Below, one piece after another: positions 43,606 through 61,957 of a stretch of 64,000 nt of DNA. This stretch comes from Geothrix sp. 21YS21S-4 (GTDB lineage: Bacteria > Acidobacteriota > Holophagae > Holophagales > Holophagaceae): NCBI RefSeq assembly GCF_030845995.1, contig NZ_CP132719.1, positions 496,001 through 560,000 of the forward strand, read 5' to 3'. The position numbers and the translations under genes are program-made. Each line of letters begins with the position of its first letter. Position 1 is the first letter of the stretch. The notes under the pieces are model-generated. The model was given only the letters and a program-made list of their open reading frames with translations. It searched no databases and was not told where the DNA came from.

Positions 43606-44907
43606 CTAGACCTTTCCGCCGCCGACGCGCTCGATGCGGGCGCCGACTTCCTGGAGTTTCCGCTCCAGGCCGGCGTAGCCGCGGTCCAGGTGGTAGATGC
43701 GGTCCACGATGGTCTCGCCCTTGGCGACGAGGCCGGCGATGACGAGGGCGGCGCTGGCGCGGAGGTCCGTGGCCATCACGGTGCAGCCGGTGAGGTCCGC
43801 GGGGCCGGCGATGATGGCGGTGTGCCCGTCGGTGCGGAGGTTGGCGCCCAGGCGCTCCAGCTCCATGGCGTGCTGGAAGCGGTTCTCGAAGATCCCCTCG
43901 TTGATGACGCTGATCCCGCAGGCCTGGGTCATCACGGCCATGAACTGGGCCTGGAGGTCCGTGGGGAAGCCGGGGAAGGGCAGGGTGGTGGCGTCCTTGG
44001 AGCGGAGCTTCTGGCCGGGCTCGCGCTGGATGCGGAGCTGGCGGCCGTCCTGCCCCTCGCGCTCGGTGATCACGCAGCCCGCCCGCTCCAGCAGGTCCAG
44101 CAGGGCTCGGAGGTGATCCGGCTCGCAGCGGTCCAGGACCACGTCGCCGCCCGCGGAGGCCACGGCGCAGAGGTAGGTGCCCGCCTCGATACGGTCGGCG
44201 ATCACGGCGTGGTCGCAGCCGCGGAGGACCTCGACACCCGTGACGGTCAGCGTCCCGGTTCCGATGCCCTCGATCTTGGCGCCCATCTTCACGAGCAGGG
44301 CGGCCAGGTCGGCGATCTCCGGCTCTTGGGCGGCGTTCCGCAGAACGGTGACGCCGTCGGCCAGGGCCGCGGCCATCAGGATGTTTTCCGTGGCGCCCAC
44401 GCTCACCTTCTCGAAGGCGTGGTCGATGGCCTTCAGCCGGCCCTTCACCGAGGCGTGGATGTAGCCGTGGCTGATCTCGAGGGTGGCGCCCATCCGCTCC
44501 AGGGCCTCCAGGTGGAGATTCACAGGGCGGGCGCCGATGGCGCAGCCGCCGGGGAGGCTGACGGTGGCCTTCCCGAAGCGGGCGAGCAGCGGGCCCAGCA
44601 CCAGGATGGAGGCCCGCATGGTCTTCACCAGGTCATAGGGAGCCTTGGGATCGTCGCTTCCGGCGCAGGCGAGATCGGCCTTCAACTCGAAGCCCTCGCC
44701 TTCGGAGGCCAAGGTGGCGGCGGTGCCCAGGGCCTGGAGGACCTTCACCATGGTGCGGATGTCCGCCACCGCGGGCAGGTTGGACAGGACCACCGGTTCC
44801 GCGGTCAGCAGGGCCGCCGCGAGGCAGGGCAGGGCCGCGTTTTTCGCCCCCGACACCCGGATGCGCCCCCGCAGGGGATGTCCACCTTGGATCACCAGTC
44901 GGTCCAT
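43606..44907 (-). CDS. murA: UDP-N-acetylglucosamine 1-carboxyvinyltransferase MurA
   Basis: 433 aa, first committed step of peptidoglycan synthesis (PEP + UDP-GlcNAc). SGAKNAALPCLAAALL at the start, active-site Cys122 in PGGCAIGARPVNLHLEAL (the fosfomycin target), FPTDLQAQFMAVMTQA, DRIYHLDRGYAGLERKL at the C-terminus. The ATG at 44907 has GGAG; the frame stays open upstream across the next gene but is not coding there. Confidence 0.97.
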   Translation of the reverse strand: MDRLVIQGGHPLRGRIRVSGAKNAALPCLAAALLTAEPVVLSNLPAVADIRTMVKVLQALGTAATLASEGEGFELKADLACAGSDDPKAPYDLVKTMRASILVLGPLLARFGKATVSLPGGCAIGARPVNLHLEALERMGATLEISHGYIHASVKGRLKAIDHAFEKVSVGATENILMAAALADGVTVLRNAAQEPEIADLAALLVKMGAKIEGIGTGTLTVTGVEVLRGCDHAVIADRIEAGTYLCAVASAGGDVVLDRCEPDHLRALLDLLERAGCVITEREGQDGRQLRIQREPGQKLRSKDATTLPFPGFPTDLQAQFMAVMTQACGISVINEGIFENRFQHAMELERLGANLRTDGHTAIIAGPADLTGCTVMATDLRASAALVIAGLVAKGETIVDRIYHLDRGYAGLERKLQEVGARIERVGGGKV

Positions 44908-44960
44908 CGAAACTCCAGCCTTCCAGCGTAGCCCAACCCCGTCGCGGAGCGGGCCGGGGC

Positions 44961-45944
44961 TCAGTGGGCCAGCCGCCGCAGCCGCTCCAGCCAGAAGCGG
45001 TATTCCAGGCTGGACACGGCGGAATCCCAGTAGCCGGTGGCCATGGCGAGGAACACGGCGGCCCAGAAGACGCAGAACAGCGCCAGGGCGAGGCGGCGGT
45101 AGTCCACCCGCCCCGTCTTCAGGCAGCGGTCGTTGGCCCGCACCCGGACGCAGTCGTGGCAGCCGATGCACTCGGGGCTGTGGATGGTGCCGGCCTGGTG
45201 CACCTGGATTCCGGCGGGGCAGGCGCGGGTGCACTTCAGGCAATCGATGCAGGCCTCGGCGTCGCGCTGCACCTTGAATGGGGAGAGCAGCGAGGCCAGG
45301 CCCATCAGGGCGCCGTAGGGGCACAGGAATCGGCACCAGAAATTGCGGACCAGATACCCGAGGACGGCCAGCACGGCGAGAACGACCAGGGTGACGGTGG
45401 ACGGGGCGGTGAAGAAATCCATCAGCTTCGCGTCCGACACCTTGTTGAAGGGCGCGTTCAGGAAGCCGTCGATGGCCTCGAGGGGCATCATCCACACGAT
45501 GCTGTACAGGAAGAACGCCAGTAGCACGTATTTCAGGGCCGACAGCGTCCGCGCCGCCCACTGGGGTAGCGGAAGATCCTTGCCCGCGAAGCCCACCACC
45601 TCGGACACCAGCCCCACTGGGCAGATGTAGCCGCAGAACCCCCGCTTGAAGACGAGGCTGATGGCGAGGAAGACCAGCAGCAGCGTCAATCCCGCGGGGT
45701 GGATCAGGTCGTACCGGCCGGTGAGGAGCAGGCGCTTCAGCCCCAGGAGGGCGCTGATCGGCAGGAAGGCCTCGACGCCGCCGGGCTTCGTCAGGGATGC
45801 GTCGCCCCGCCCCAGGGCGGAGAGGAAGAAATGAAAGCTCGCGCCCACGTACGCCGTGACCGCGAGGAAGAACACCTGGACCGCCCGCCGGACCTGGGTC
45901 CGGTGGCTGGAAAGGAATGACAGCGAATGGGTGAAGGCGGCCAT
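44961..45944 (-). CDS. NapH-like membrane ferredoxin, 4Fe-4S
   Basis: 327 aa. About five transmembrane helices, two cytoplasmic-side CxxxCP motifs (FCGYICPVG and WCRFLCPYG) and two 4Fe-4S clusters: CIDCLKCTRACP and CIGCHDCVRVRANDRC. This is the NapH/RdxA/CcoG type that moves electrons between quinol and redox proteins. It may serve NrfHA or nitrous-oxide/nitrate metabolism, but no nap or nos genes are nearby. The ATG at 45944 gives a proper first helix. Confidence 0.8.
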   Translation of the reverse strand: MAAFTHSLSFLSSHRTQVRRAVQVFFLAVTAYVGASFHFFLSALGRGDASLTKPGGVEAFLPISALLGLKRLLLTGRYDLIHPAGLTLLLVFLAISLVFKRGFCGYICPVGLVSEVVGFAGKDLPLPQWAARTLSALKYVLLAFFLYSIVWMMPLEAIDGFLNAPFNKVSDAKLMDFFTAPSTVTLVVLAVLAVLGYLVRNFWCRFLCPYGALMGLASLLSPFKVQRDAEACIDCLKCTRACPAGIQVHQAGTIHSPECIGCHDCVRVRANDRCLKTGRVDYRRLALALFCVFWAAVFLAMATGYWDSAVSSLEYRFWLERLRRLAH

Positions 45945-46056
45945 GGGGATCCCCTGCTCGCGGAGGCAAAGAGCCGGGACGGTGTCCCTGCCCCGAGCAT
46001 GGCAGCCGGGGATCCGGCAGGCGGTCACATTTCGGAGGCTGCGGTCCCGTTCGGGA

Positions 46057-46494
46057 TCAGGCCTGGGGCGGGGTGCGGGAAGCGACCATCAGCCGGTTCC
46101 AGGCGTTGATTTCGGCCACGGCGAAGGACAGGTCCGCCAGCTCCTTGGGGGCGAACTGCTCCGCCGCCTGGGCGTAGATCGCGTCGGGGACTTCGCCTTC
46201 GAGGTGGGTCAGCGCTTCCGCCCATTCCAGGGCCGCGCGGACGCGGGCGTCGAACACCGGCGCCTCGCGCCAGGCGGCGAGCAGGTGCAGCTGCATCTCG
46301 CTGACGCCGTGCTGGCGGGCCAGGGGAACGTGCATCGCCAGGCAGAAGGCGCAGGCGTTGAGCTGGGAGACGCGGATCTTCACGAGTTCGAGCAGGCCCA
46401 GGTCGAGGCCGCTGCCCTGGACGTAGCTGTGGACGCCCAGCATGGCCTTGTAGCCCGCGGGGGTGAGGGTGGTGAGGTCGAAGCGCTGATGCAT
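46057..46494 (-). CDS. AhpD/carboxymuconolactone decarboxylase-family protein
   Basis: 145 aa. Redox motif CAFCLAMH in the pattern E-LVKIRVSQLNACAFCLAMH, a hallmark of the CMD/AhpD family of peroxidase-like proteins. It is a tandem paralogue of the next gene (13-nt gap). Proteins of this family are common partners of ECF41 sigma factors, one of which lies 3 kb away. Confidence 0.88.
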   Translation of the reverse strand: MHQRFDLTTLTPAGYKAMLGVHSYVQGSGLDLGLLELVKIRVSQLNACAFCLAMHVPLARQHGVSEMQLHLLAAWREAPVFDARVRAALEWAEALTHLEGEVPDAIYAQAAEQFAPKELADLSFAVAEINAWNRLMVASRTPPQA

Positions 46495-46507
46495 GGAGGG
46501 CTCCAGG

Positions 46508-46975
46508 TCAGGAACGGGAATGGGCCGCGCGGGCGGCGGCGGGCAGGTTGCGGGCACTGACGCTGAGGCGGTTGTAGGCGTTCATCAGCGAGATCGCGAC
46601 GGTGAGGTCGGACAGCTCTTTTTCGTCGAACAGTGCGGCCACGGCGGCGTATTCGGCGTCCGGAACGGCGGTCTGGGCCACGCAGGTGACCGTCTCCGCC
46701 CAGGCCAGGGCCGCGCGCTCGCGCGCATCGAACAACGGCTCAGCCTCCCGCCAGACGCCGACGAGCATGAGCTTCTCCACGGACAGCCCGTGCTTCAGCA
46801 GGTCCCGGGAGTGCATGTCGATGCAGAAGGCGCAGCCGTTGATCTGCGACACGCGGAGGTAGACCAGCTCCACCAGCGCGGGGGCCAGGCCGCAGCCGGC
46901 CAGATAGGCGTGGACGGAACCCAGGCCCTGGACGGCGGCGGGGGCGAGGCGGGCGTAATCGAAGCGGGGGCTCAT
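46508..46975 (-). CDS. AhpD/carboxymuconolactone decarboxylase-family protein
   Basis: 155 aa. CAFCIDMH motif in YLRVSQINGCAFCIDMHSRDL; downstream pattern AALAWAETVTCVA, DEKELSDLTVAISLMNAYNRLSV matches its neighbour (ALEWAEALTHLE, KELADLSFAVAEINAWNRLMV). First gene of a two-gene unit divergent from the MocR-type regulator, which is its probable controller. Confidence 0.88.
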   Translation of the reverse strand: MSPRFDYARLAPAAVQGLGSVHAYLAGCGLAPALVELVYLRVSQINGCAFCIDMHSRDLLKHGLSVEKLMLVGVWREAEPLFDARERAALAWAETVTCVAQTAVPDAEYAAVAALFDEKELSDLTVAISLMNAYNRLSVSARNLPAAARAAHSRS

Positions 46976-47020
46976 GGCGGCTCCGGAGAAGGTGTTCGAA
47001 CAGATCTAGCCTCGCCCGGC

Positions 47021-47062
47021 GCATGGTGCATGCGATAGACCCAAGAATTGCCCATTCATGGG
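47021..47062. promoter_or_regulatory. Two palindromes in the AhpD / MocR divergent region, possible operators
   Basis: GCATG-GTG-CATGC at 47021-47033 and CCCAT-TC-ATGGG at 47051-47062, centres about 30 bp (three helical turns) apart in the 98-bp divergent gap. Confidence 0.4.
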
Positions 47063-47073
47063 TACCATCGATC

Positions 47074-48486
47074 ATGGCCGCCGTTTTTTCCCTCCAGCTC
47101 GATCGCCACGGATCGGCTCCGCTGGCGGAGCAGATCCGCGCGGGCATCCGCGCCGCCATCGGCGATGGCCGTTTGGCGCCCGGCGCGCGCCTGCCGTCCT
47201 GGCGGGACCTGGCCGCCCAGCTGGGCGTGGCCCGGGGCACGGTGCGGATCGCCTACGAGCGGCTCATCGACGACCAACTCGTGGCCAGCGCCGGGGCCGC
47301 GGGCACCTACGTGGCCGCCCGGCCCGCGGCTCCCCTGCCGCCCGCGCCTCCCGCGGACGAGGCGCCCCTTCTGAGCGCGGGGATCCTCGCGGAGCCCAAC
47401 GTCTTCCAGCTGGGGGTGCCCGCGCAGGACGCCTTTCCGGCCAAGGTCTGGTCCCGCATCCTGCTCCGCGCCACCCGCGCGGCGGCGGGCCGGTCCGTGG
47501 GCTATCCGGACGCCCGGGGCGAGTTGGCCCTGCGCCAGGAAATCGCCGCCAGCCTGGCCCTCACCCGGGGGATCGCCTGCTCGCCGGCCCAGGTGTTCAT
47601 CACGGCCGGGTACGCGGGCGGGCTGGGCCTGGCGCTGCGGGTCCTGCGGACCGAAGGAGCGGAGGCCTGGATGGAGGATCCCGGCTACCTGTTCGCCCGG
47701 CGGGCCCTCGAACTGGCGGGCGTCCGGCCCGTGGCCGTGCCCGTCGATGCGGAGGGTCTGGACGTGGCCGCGGGCGTCCGCGCCGCCCCACGCGCGGCCC
47801 TGGCGCTGGTGACGCCGGGCCAGCAGGCGCCCCTGGGAATGACCCTCTCCCTCGCGCGCCGCCACGCCCTGCTCGACTGGGCGGAACGGGCGGGCGCGTG
47901 GATCCTGGAGGACGACTACCTCGGCGAACTCCAGCTCAAGGGCCGCGCCGCGCCCGCCCTGGCTTCCCTGGACCGCGCCGGGCGGGTGATCCACTTCGGC
48001 ACCTTCAGCAAGACCATCAGCCCCGCTTTGCGGCTGGGCTTCCTGGTGGTGCCGCCGGCGCTCGTCACCCCCTTCGCGGAAGTCGCCGCCCTCCTGGCCC
48101 CGGCGCCGGCCGCGCCGATCCAGCACGCGGTGGCCGAGTTCCTGCGGGACGGCCACTACCTGCGCCACCTCCGCCACATGAAGCGCGTCTACGCCCATCG
48201 GCGGCAGATGCTGGCCGCATGCCTGGCGGAGGCGGGGGAGGATCCGGTCCTCGCCGGATTGGCGGTGCTCCAGCGGCTGCCCGCGGGAAGCGACGACGCG
48301 GCGGTCGTCCGCGAGGCCAATCGCGCGGGTCTGTTCCCCATGCCGCTCTCCGTGTGGTACGCGGATCCCGCCGCGGCGCCCCGGGGCCTGCTGCTGGGCG
48401 TCACCAACCTGCCCGAGGCCCGCGTGGCGGAGTGCTGCGCGGCGCTGGCCGCCGCCATCGACCGGGCGGTGGGGACGGACCAATAG
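47074..48486 (+). CDS. MocR/PdxR-type GntR-aminotransferase transcriptional regulator
   Basis: 470 aa. GntR winged helix (about 1-75, with PLAEQIRAGIRAAIGDGRLAPGARLPSWRDLAAQLGVARGTVRIAYERL) joined to a class I aminotransferase-fold domain: GYPDARGELALRQEIAASL, FITAGYAGGLGLALRVL, ILEDDYLGEL, and the PLP lysine in HFGTFSKTISPALRLGFLVVP. MocR regulators use PLP as sensor. It most likely controls the divergent AhpD pair. ATG 47074 starts right at the winged helix. Confidence 0.92.
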   Translation: MAAVFSLQLDRHGSAPLAEQIRAGIRAAIGDGRLAPGARLPSWRDLAAQLGVARGTVRIAYERLIDDQLVASAGAAGTYVAARPAAPLPPAPPADEAPLLSAGILAEPNVFQLGVPAQDAFPAKVWSRILLRATRAAAGRSVGYPDARGELALRQEIAASLALTRGIACSPAQVFITAGYAGGLGLALRVLRTEGAEAWMEDPGYLFARRALELAGVRPVAVPVDAEGLDVAAGVRAAPRAALALVTPGQQAPLGMTLSLARRHALLDWAERAGAWILEDDYLGELQLKGRAAPALASLDRAGRVIHFGTFSKTISPALRLGFLVVPPALVTPFAEVAALLAPAPAAPIQHAVAEFLRDGHYLRHLRHMKRVYAHRRQMLAACLAEAGEDPVLAGLAVLQRLPAGSDDAAVVREANRAGLFPMPLSVWYADPAAAPRGLLLGVTNLPEARVAECCAALAAAIDRAVGTDQ

Positions 48487-48499
48487 GCGATCAAACCCA

Positions 48500-48590
48500 A
48501 GATCTTCTTTTCACCACCAAGACACCAAGAAAAGCTCTATTCACTCGGGGGGGCCTTCGCCTCTTGGTGAGGATCCTTATCTTCTGAATG
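48500..48590. repeat. Palindromic intergenic element, CCAAG class (copy 2)
   Basis: GATCTTCTTTTCACCACCAA then GACACCAAGAAAAGCTC on the left; CTCTTGGTGAGGATC then CTTATCTTCTGAAT on the right. It begins 14 nt after the stop of the regulator gene and ends 15 nt before the ECF41 promoter. Confidence 0.75.
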
Positions 48591-48605
48591 CTTTCCTGCC
48601 GGGGA

Positions 48606-48632
48606 TGTCACATCTCGCCGCGCTGGCTCGTC
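48606..48632 (+). promoter_or_regulatory. ECF41-type promoter
   Basis: TGTCACA (48606-48612), 16 nt, CGTC (48629-48632). This is the consensus described for ECF41 sigma factors, and it precedes the two-gene unit that encodes one. It implies autoregulation. Confidence 0.75.
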
Positions 48633-48655
48633 ATGTGTTATCGAGGAGGAAAACC

Positions 48656-49006
48656 ATGACCCCGAACCCCCGCGCGCAGATCACTCCCGGCGGCGAAGCC
48701 GTCGTCCTGATCAATGTCTACGAGGTGGCCCCGGAGCGGCAGGACGAACTGGCCCAGCTGCTGGGCGAGGTGACGGAGGCCGCCATCCGGGACCGGCCGG
48801 GCTTCGTCTCGGTCTGCATCCACAAGAGCCTCGATGGCACGCAGGTGGTGAACTACGCGCAATGGGCGTCCAAGCCGCACTTCGACCAGATGCTGAAGGA
48901 TCCGGCGGCCCAGGCCCAGTTCCGGCGCCTCGCGGGCGTCGCCCGGGGCGTGGCGCCGGTGCTGTACCAGGTCGCGGCCGTCCACCTTCCGGGTACGGCC
49001 GGCTGA
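48656..49006 (+). CDS. Antibiotic-biosynthesis-monooxygenase (ABM) fold protein
   Basis: 116 aa. EAVVLINVYEVAPERQDELAQLLGEVTEA, PGFVSVCIHKSLDGTQVVNYAQWASKPHFDQML is the dimeric alpha/beta ferredoxin-like ABM pattern. Members include quinone-oxidising monooxygenases and heme-degrading enzymes; no specific activity can be stated. ATG 48656 has GAGGAGG; the stop overlaps the sigma factor start (TGATG), so the two are coupled. Confidence 0.85.
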   Translation: MTPNPRAQITPGGEAVVLINVYEVAPERQDELAQLLGEVTEAAIRDRPGFVSVCIHKSLDGTQVVNYAQWASKPHFDQMLKDPAAQAQFRRLAGVARGVAPVLYQVAAVHLPGTAG

Positions 49007-49869
49007 TGACGGAGCAGCCCGAGGACCCGTTCACCCTCGCCCGCCCTTGGCTGCTCCGCATCGCCTATCGGATGCTGGGCTCGGTGGGCGATGCGGAGGG
49101 CGTGGTCCAGGAGTCCTATCTCCGCTTCCAGGACCAGGCTCCGGGATCGATCCTGAACCCCGGGGCCTTCCTCCGCCGCGTCGTCATCCGCCTCTGCCTC
49201 GACCACCTGAAGTCGGCCCGGCGCACGCGGGAGATCTACGTGGGCACCTGGCTGCCGGAGCCGGTGGTGGAGCCAGCCGAGGGCGAGGTGGACGACTTCG
49301 TGATGCCGCTGCTGCTGGCCCTGGAGCGCCTGACGCCCCTGGAGCGGGCGGCCTTCCTGCTGCACGACATCTTCGGCGTGGCCTTCGACGAAGTGGCCGC
49401 CACGATCCGCCGGGAACCCGCCGCCTGCCGCCAGCTGGCGCGGCGGGCCCGGGAGAGCGTGCGGGCGGACCGGCCCCGGTTCCCGGTGGCGCGGGCGCGG
49501 GGCCTGGAGCTCGCCGCGGCCTTCTTCGCGGCCTCCCGGAACGGGGAACTTGATCGTCTCCAGTCCCTGCTCTCCGAGGACGTGGTCGTCTACTCGGACG
49601 GCGGGGGGAAGGCCTCCTCCCTGGAGCATCCCTGCGCCGGCCTTCAGCCCGCCCTGGAGCTCTTCGCGTCCCTCCAGCCCCTGTTCGCGGAGTGTCCCTC
49701 CACGCTGGTGCGCTACGCCTTCGTGAACGGCCTGCCCGGCTTCGTCACCCGGGAGGCGGGCGGCCTCCTCCAGACGACGGGCCTGGAGGTCGACGGGGAC
49801 CGCATCCGCCGCATCTACGTCACGCGGAATCCCGACAAGGTCCGCCACCTGGACCGGTCCAGCCCCTAG
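49006..49869 (+). CDS. ECF41-family RNA polymerase sigma factor (SigJ type) with SnoaL-like C-terminus
   Basis: 287 aa. Sigma2 region (PWLLRIAYRMLGSVGDAEGVVQESYLRF), WLPEP linker motif (82-86), sigma4 region (LERLTPLERAAFLLHDIFGVAFDEVAA), then a SnoaL-like extension with DGGGK (198-202) and NPDK (275-278). These three motifs define ECF41. The extension acts in cis to tune activity and takes the place of a membrane anti-sigma factor. Targets in this family are typically CMD/AhpD-type, oxidoreductase or epimerase genes. Confidence 0.95.
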   Translation: MTEQPEDPFTLARPWLLRIAYRMLGSVGDAEGVVQESYLRFQDQAPGSILNPGAFLRRVVIRLCLDHLKSARRTREIYVGTWLPEPVVEPAEGEVDDFVMPLLLALERLTPLERAAFLLHDIFGVAFDEVAATIRREPAACRQLARRARESVRADRPRFPVARARGLELAAAFFAASRNGELDRLQSLLSEDVVVYSDGGGKASSLEHPCAGLQPALELFASLQPLFAECPSTLVRYAFVNGLPGFVTREAGGLLQTTGLEVDGDRIRRIYVTRNPDKVRHLDRSSP

Positions 49870-61854: not shown

Positions 61855-61957
61855 CATTCAAAAGATTAAAGATCACCGCCAAGACACCAAGGACGCCAAG
61901 AAGAACAAACCAAGTCCGGATACTTTTCTTGGCGGTGAATGAGAACCTTGGGTCTTG
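61855..61957. repeat. Palindromic intergenic element, CCAAG class (copy 3)
   Basis: TCAAAAGATTAAAGATCACC then GCCAAGACACCAAGGACGCC and AAGAAGAAC on the left; ACTTTTCTTGGCGGTGAATG then AGAACCTTGGGTC on the right. It begins about 10 nt after the yecH-like stop. Closest to 48500-48590. Confidence 0.75.

Follow-up and report, generated by a model that had tools for sequence, protein, structure and literature searches.

An ABM-family gene and an ECF41 sigma factor as a probable self-activating operon in Geothrix sp. 21YS21S-4

Introduction

Why should an ECF41 sigma factor gene directly follow a gene for an ABM-family protein, when a pair of AhpD-like genes lies only a short distance upstream? We considered this question for a 64,000-nt stretch of the genome of Geothrix sp. 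21YS21S-4, the whole of which is called the window below (features in Table 1). An earlier note on this DNA had treated positions 46057-49869 as one unit in which two sensing routes might be joined. We find that the ABM-ECF41 unit spans 48606-49869 and that the remainder is another module.

Table 1. Features of the locus in window coordinates.
Feature	Position	Strand	Basis and remarks
AhpD-like protein, second copy, with CxxC; tandem paralogue (50% identity)	46057..46494	-	PF02627; tree
AhpD-like protein with CxxC, divergent from MocR	46508..46975	-	PF02627; tree
MocR-type (PdxR-like) regulator, GntR and aminotransferase domains	47074..48486	+	PF00392, PF00155; NF052282, 356 bits vs 320
ECF41-type promoter	48606..48632	+	-35 TGTCACA, 16-nt spacer, -10 CGTC; exact consensus, TGTCACATCTCGCCGCGCTGGCTCGTC
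Probable ribosome-binding site GAGGAGG of the ABM gene	48644..48650	+	read from sequence
ABM-family protein, 116 aa	48656..49006	+	PF03992, 6.5e-11, 42.7 bits
ECF41 sigma factor, 287 aa; SnoaL-like regulatory domain fused at the C-terminus	49006..49869	+	NF007214, SigJ 5xe7, motifs

Results

The sigma factor scored 333.9 bits over residues 5-283 with NF007214, the NCBIfam model of the SigJ subfamily (cut-off 271), and its sigma2 and sigma4 domains are of the ECF type (PF04542, 9.8e-11; PF08281, 2e-8). The WLPEP motif described for the ECF41 linker (PMC3426412) occurs in the context GTWLPEPVV, and DGGGK and NPDKV are also present; the earlier identification as ECF41 is supported. The best solved relative is Mycobacterium tuberculosis SigJ (5xe7), which aligns up to residue 250. 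This alignment and the coverage of NF007214 reveal a C-terminal extension of about 100 residues of the SigJ/SnoaL type; none of the SnoaL Pfam models passed 1e-3 on this protein. No anti-sigma gene lies beside the sigma gene, its neighbours being the ABM gene, the MocR gene and a signal peptidase-like gene, and the group-specific promoter stands ahead of the sigma factor and its partner. The usual ECF41 partners are a carboxymuconolactone decarboxylase, an oxidoreductase or an epimerase, and about one-third of the 2012 set lacks them (PMC3426412). ABM is absent from the Pfam partner list of that study.

How unusual is this partner? We scanned species genomes for the 80 ECF41 loci nearest to the window protein, a sample that is not an unbiased census and in which an AhpD-type gene lies directly beside the sigma gene at 48 loci and a window-type ABM gene at 7, as befits the less usual partner proposed earlier. 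These seven are found in Pleomorphomonas (four), Aureimonas, Pigmentiphaga and an unclassified proteobacterium, and most of the 80 loci carry the promoter ahead of the first gene. The strict promoter precedes the ABM-ECF41 pair at L038, L042, L054, L055 and L078, at the Azospirillum loci L154 and L155, and at L160/L182 of the Acidobacteriota; in L045 and L048 a single base differs, the leading one of the -35 element. The Azospirillum pairs, with their promoter, are carried on plasmids, and those of L154 and L156 abut flagellar genes. An Azospirillum ECF41, RpoE10, is reported to control lateral flagella, and the ABM-linked sigma beside the flagellar genes is possibly this protein. In a sample of 396 genomes of the phylum, one other genome (G132) has the pair; at its locus (L182, 4054-6678), separate ECF41 promoters stand before an AhpD gene and before the ABM gene, and a GNAT gene separates the two genes. 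Upstream there is an FMN-reductase-like gene. ABM is a minority yet recurrent partner of ECF41 across phyla, and no description of the pairing was found in the literature library that we searched. The MocR-ABM order, which is also seen in Pigmentiphaga (L048), was set aside as a coincidence; the upstream ORF there is aminotransferase-like, and no AhpD gene is nearby.

Does the sigma factor share its descent with the other ABM-linked sigmas? Its closest relatives are alphaproteobacterial, together with L050 (66% identity), an AhpD-linked ECF41 of a metagenome-assembled genome of the Acidobacteriota. A careful tree with 47 rows placed the window sigma beside L050 (95/89) and united the flavodoxin-linked sigmas in one clade (100/100) with those linked to ABM in Azospirillum, Pleomorphomonas, Pigmentiphaga and Aureimonas; the support for the L050 pairing dropped to 91/88 once more acidobacterial rows were added. 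A place with the seven ABM-linked sigmas alone, which are interrupted by flavodoxin-linked sigmas, was rejected (p-AU 0.018), yet a place within the whole ABM/flavodoxin clade was not (AU test, p 0.66 in the quick and 0.12 in the careful analysis). We also rejected a domain chimera; L050 was the best or near-best match across all domains. ECF41 circuits may be modular, with a conserved promoter that permits the enzyme (AhpD, flavodoxin or ABM) to be swapped, in which case the window would combine a sigma of the AhpD lineage, sister to L050, with an ABM that is otherwise found beside another ECF41 lineage. Because the L050 pairing weakens and the alternative placement is not rejected (p-AU 0.12), we offer partner exchange as a tentative suggestion, and not as the history that we would favour. 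The locus L182 resembles an intermediate in such an exchange. A different SnoaL-type ECF sigma is encoded downstream of an AhpD gene at three loci of the same genus (L031, L032 and L009), with WLPGP in place of WLPEP in L031 and a promoter-like TGTAAC...GTC site ahead of the AhpD gene in L031 and L032. These sigmas may belong to another ECF group with an AhpD partner.

What might the ABM protein do? A profile built from eight ABMs matched FasU (9lsd), PenE (9kdp), an anthrone oxidase-like protein (5f9p) and ActVA-Orf6 (1lq9) in the PDB, and a Foldseek search with the AlphaFold model (pLDDT 78) returned FasU (6e-9), ActVA-Orf6 (1.7e-6) and SnoaB. The protein belongs to this fold class and is predicted to form a dimeric, ferredoxin-like alpha+beta barrel, as in ActVA-Orf6, FasU and SnoaB. 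Residues N66 and W70 (N-x3-W), which are invariant in the ABM alignment, are aligned to the VVNYAQW segment of 1lq9. In ActVA-Orf6 and SnoaB, the Asn and Trp serve the cofactor-free oxidation of hydroxyanthrones to quinones. Judged by fold and motif, the window ABM is most like the cofactor-free oxygenases of the ActVA-Orf6/anthrone type, and this activity is putative. Since it resembles ActVA-Orf6 and SnoaB and keeps both residues, we infer the likely class of ligand and product to be that of aromatic or quinone-like compounds. The six sampled ABMs that are not linked to an ECF41 gene clustered together (91/88), and none of the 12 ECF41-linked ABMs of the window type fell among them.

Could ABM instead be a regulatory partner, binding the SnoaL-like domain or the sigma itself as an anti-sigma or co-sensor? 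The stop codon of ABM and the start codon of ECF41 overlap by 1 nt (position 49006), and both this translational overlap and the conservation of the pairing across phyla would suit such a role. We nevertheless consider it unlikely: close ECF41 relatives swap partners among AhpD, flavodoxin and ABM, which argues against a specific protein contact, the protein keeps the Asn and Trp typical of ActVA-Orf6 and SnoaB, and the 2012 work detected no part for the partner proteins in signalling (PMC3426412).

Do the neighbouring MocR and AhpD genes belong to the same circuit? The regulator has the GntR winged helix fused to an aminotransferase-like domain that defines MocR/PdxR proteins. A PdxR is expected beside pyridoxine biosynthesis genes, but the neighbours here are AhpD and ABM genes, and we therefore do not claim a PdxR function. 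No clear repeat that could serve as a MocR operator was found between the AhpD and MocR starts. The divergent MocR/AhpD pair occurs without an ECF41 of the window's type in nine genomes of the same genus, and in the AhpD tree the two window AhpDs lie with the AhpDs of these nine genomes and with two rows on long branches, and the supported group formed by 59 ECF-linked AhpDs does not include them. As the earlier note had observed, the AhpD genes face MocR and lack the ECF41 promoter; the motif TGTCACA-N14-18-CGTC is present once in the window, at the ABM gene. Its proposal of two joined sensing routes loses support because MocR/AhpD stand alone elsewhere and the window AhpDs fall outside the ECF-linked group; ABM-ECF41 likewise occurs elsewhere without MocR/AhpD, and on this modularity of both units we rejected an integration of MocR and ECF41 signals. 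The broader reading of one stress locus, in which ECF41 also governs both AhpDs, directly or through MocR, and AhpD, MocR, ABM and sigma act jointly, draws on AhpD being the usual ECF41 partner and on L182, where AhpD, GNAT, ABM and ECF41 are grouped and both AhpD and ABM have ECF41 promoters. We regard it as improbable in the window, given the absence of the motif near the AhpDs, the solitary MocR/AhpD pairs of the genus and the AhpD phylogeny. The MocR gene and the two AhpD genes are a module separate from ABM-ECF41.

How far can the promoter be trusted? For TGTCACA-N14-18-CGTC, 0.03 matches are expected per window; genome-wide (3.08 Mb) there are 2 matches versus 1 in the reversed control, and therefore the string alone proves little. 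We take the promoter as real because of its position and its conservation before ABM genes elsewhere; the exact match that had been noted ahead of ABM-ECF41 thus stands. The distance from the -10 element to the ATG is 23 nt, versus about 33-38 nt in relatives, so that the leader would be short. When the genome search meant to define the regulon was run on all 3.08 Mb with the N16 spacer, it returned one site only, the operon's own promoter. The looser TGTCAC-N16..18-CGTC has three sites genome-wide, the other two with a 17-base spacer, one of them inside rpoA and one antisense to a FAD oxidoreductase gene; with no second N16 site and with the near-sites in or across coding sequence, a wider ECF41 regulon in this genome was rejected. 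That the match is a chance string, with transcription of the operon starting at a housekeeping promoter or one further upstream, is very improbable despite the genome-wide count not clearly above the control and the short leader, in view of the N16 spacer, the position, the conservation before ABM genes in other phyla and the finding of no sigma-70-like site in the region.

The locus occupies a variable site. The murA and lepB genes are 65-196 bp apart in four genomes of the same genus (G002, G014, G021 and G024) and separated by about 0.8-0.95 kb in a further three; in the window, the interval between them (44890-49869) holds a polyferredoxin-like gene, which by eye we take to be of the NapH type, both AhpD genes, MocR, ABM and ECF41. 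All of this block is accessory DNA inserted at a variable site, and a window-type ABM and a close ECF41 were absent from the 36 genomes of the genus that made up the first sample. A REP-like hairpin repeat, CACCAAGACACCAAG, with its inverted partner, lies at 48515-48569, just upstream of the ECF41 promoter, and at 61877-61891. When up to one mismatch is allowed, the genome (3.08 Mb) has 160 copies, versus 1 in the reversed control, many of them in inverted pairs spaced by roughly 30-60 bp.

Discussion

Because 48606-48632 is the sole N16 site in the genome, a closed, self-activating ABM-ECF41 operon is the best reading. We hold it to be probable that the sigma factor drives the promoter of its own operon as the only recognisable target in the genome and that ABM alters a putative inducer. 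Experimental precedent exists in closed, self-activating AhpD-ECF41 operons (PMC3426412), and in ECF41 systems that have been studied the sigma is under the control of its fused C-terminal domain and has the neighbouring operon as its sole target (PMC3426412, PMC8999054, PMC6180224). In Sinorhizobium meliloti, for example, RpoE9 has the single target SMb20029, with TGTCACACCGGCGGCCGCTGTCTCGTC at the mapped start site (PMC6180224). The operon is thus a circuit of a known kind, in which the enzyme partner is a less common one.

By analogy with those proteins, the SnoaL-like domain would fold back on sigma2, the linker and sigma4 and keep the sigma inactive or weakly active. A small ligand, probably aromatic or quinone-like, might then shift the conformation of this domain, and the freed sigma would bind RNA polymerase and, at 48606-48632, switch on ABM together with its own gene, forming a positive loop. 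ABM may oxidise, and so remove or alter, the inducing compound, which would provide a negative loop. Quinone-like ligands are a fair guess for this sigma. In the 2012 study, phenotype screens on ECF41 gave nothing reproducible, and sensitivity to peroxide was not seen (PMC3426412). ECF41 regulons can be wider in places, as suggested by the reported control of lateral flagella in Azospirillum and by L182 with its two ECF41 promoters.

ECF41 sigma factors are widespread, and with an ABM of the anthrone-oxygenase kind as a recurrent partner, the search for an inducer narrows to aromatic or quinol compounds that can be oxidised. The unit of promoter, enzyme and sigma is small and self-contained, and could easily be moved to a laboratory host for testing.

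How does the operon compare with known systems? Its sigma shares with M. tuberculosis SigJ (5xe7) the sigma2-linker-sigma4 arrangement followed by SnoaL_2, and the WLPEP linker. The operons SMb20029-rpoE9 of S. meliloti, RSP_0606-ecf41 of Rhodobacter sphaeroides and ydfG/ecf41 of Bacillus licheniformis resemble it in the fused C-terminal domain, the type of promoter, the target gene beside the sigma and the single target operon; their target encodes an AhpD/carboxymuconolactone decarboxylase, whereas that of the window encodes ABM. ActVA-Orf6, FasU, SnoaB and PenE, members of the ABM superfamily, have the fold of the window ABM in common, and ActVA-Orf6 also the VVNYAQW segment, but these proteins serve antibiotic or polyketide pathways. 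The nearest counterparts as a unit are the ABM-ECF41 pairs of Azospirillum (L154-L156), Pleomorphomonas, Aureimonas and Pigmentiphaga, which have the same two genes in identical order, a promoter of the TGTCAC type (changed by one base in Pigmentiphaga and P. koreensis) and ABMs about 48-61% identical to that of the window over the matched part; their sigmas fall in the supported clade with flavodoxin-linked ECF41s, whereas the window sigma is nearer to the AhpD-linked ones.
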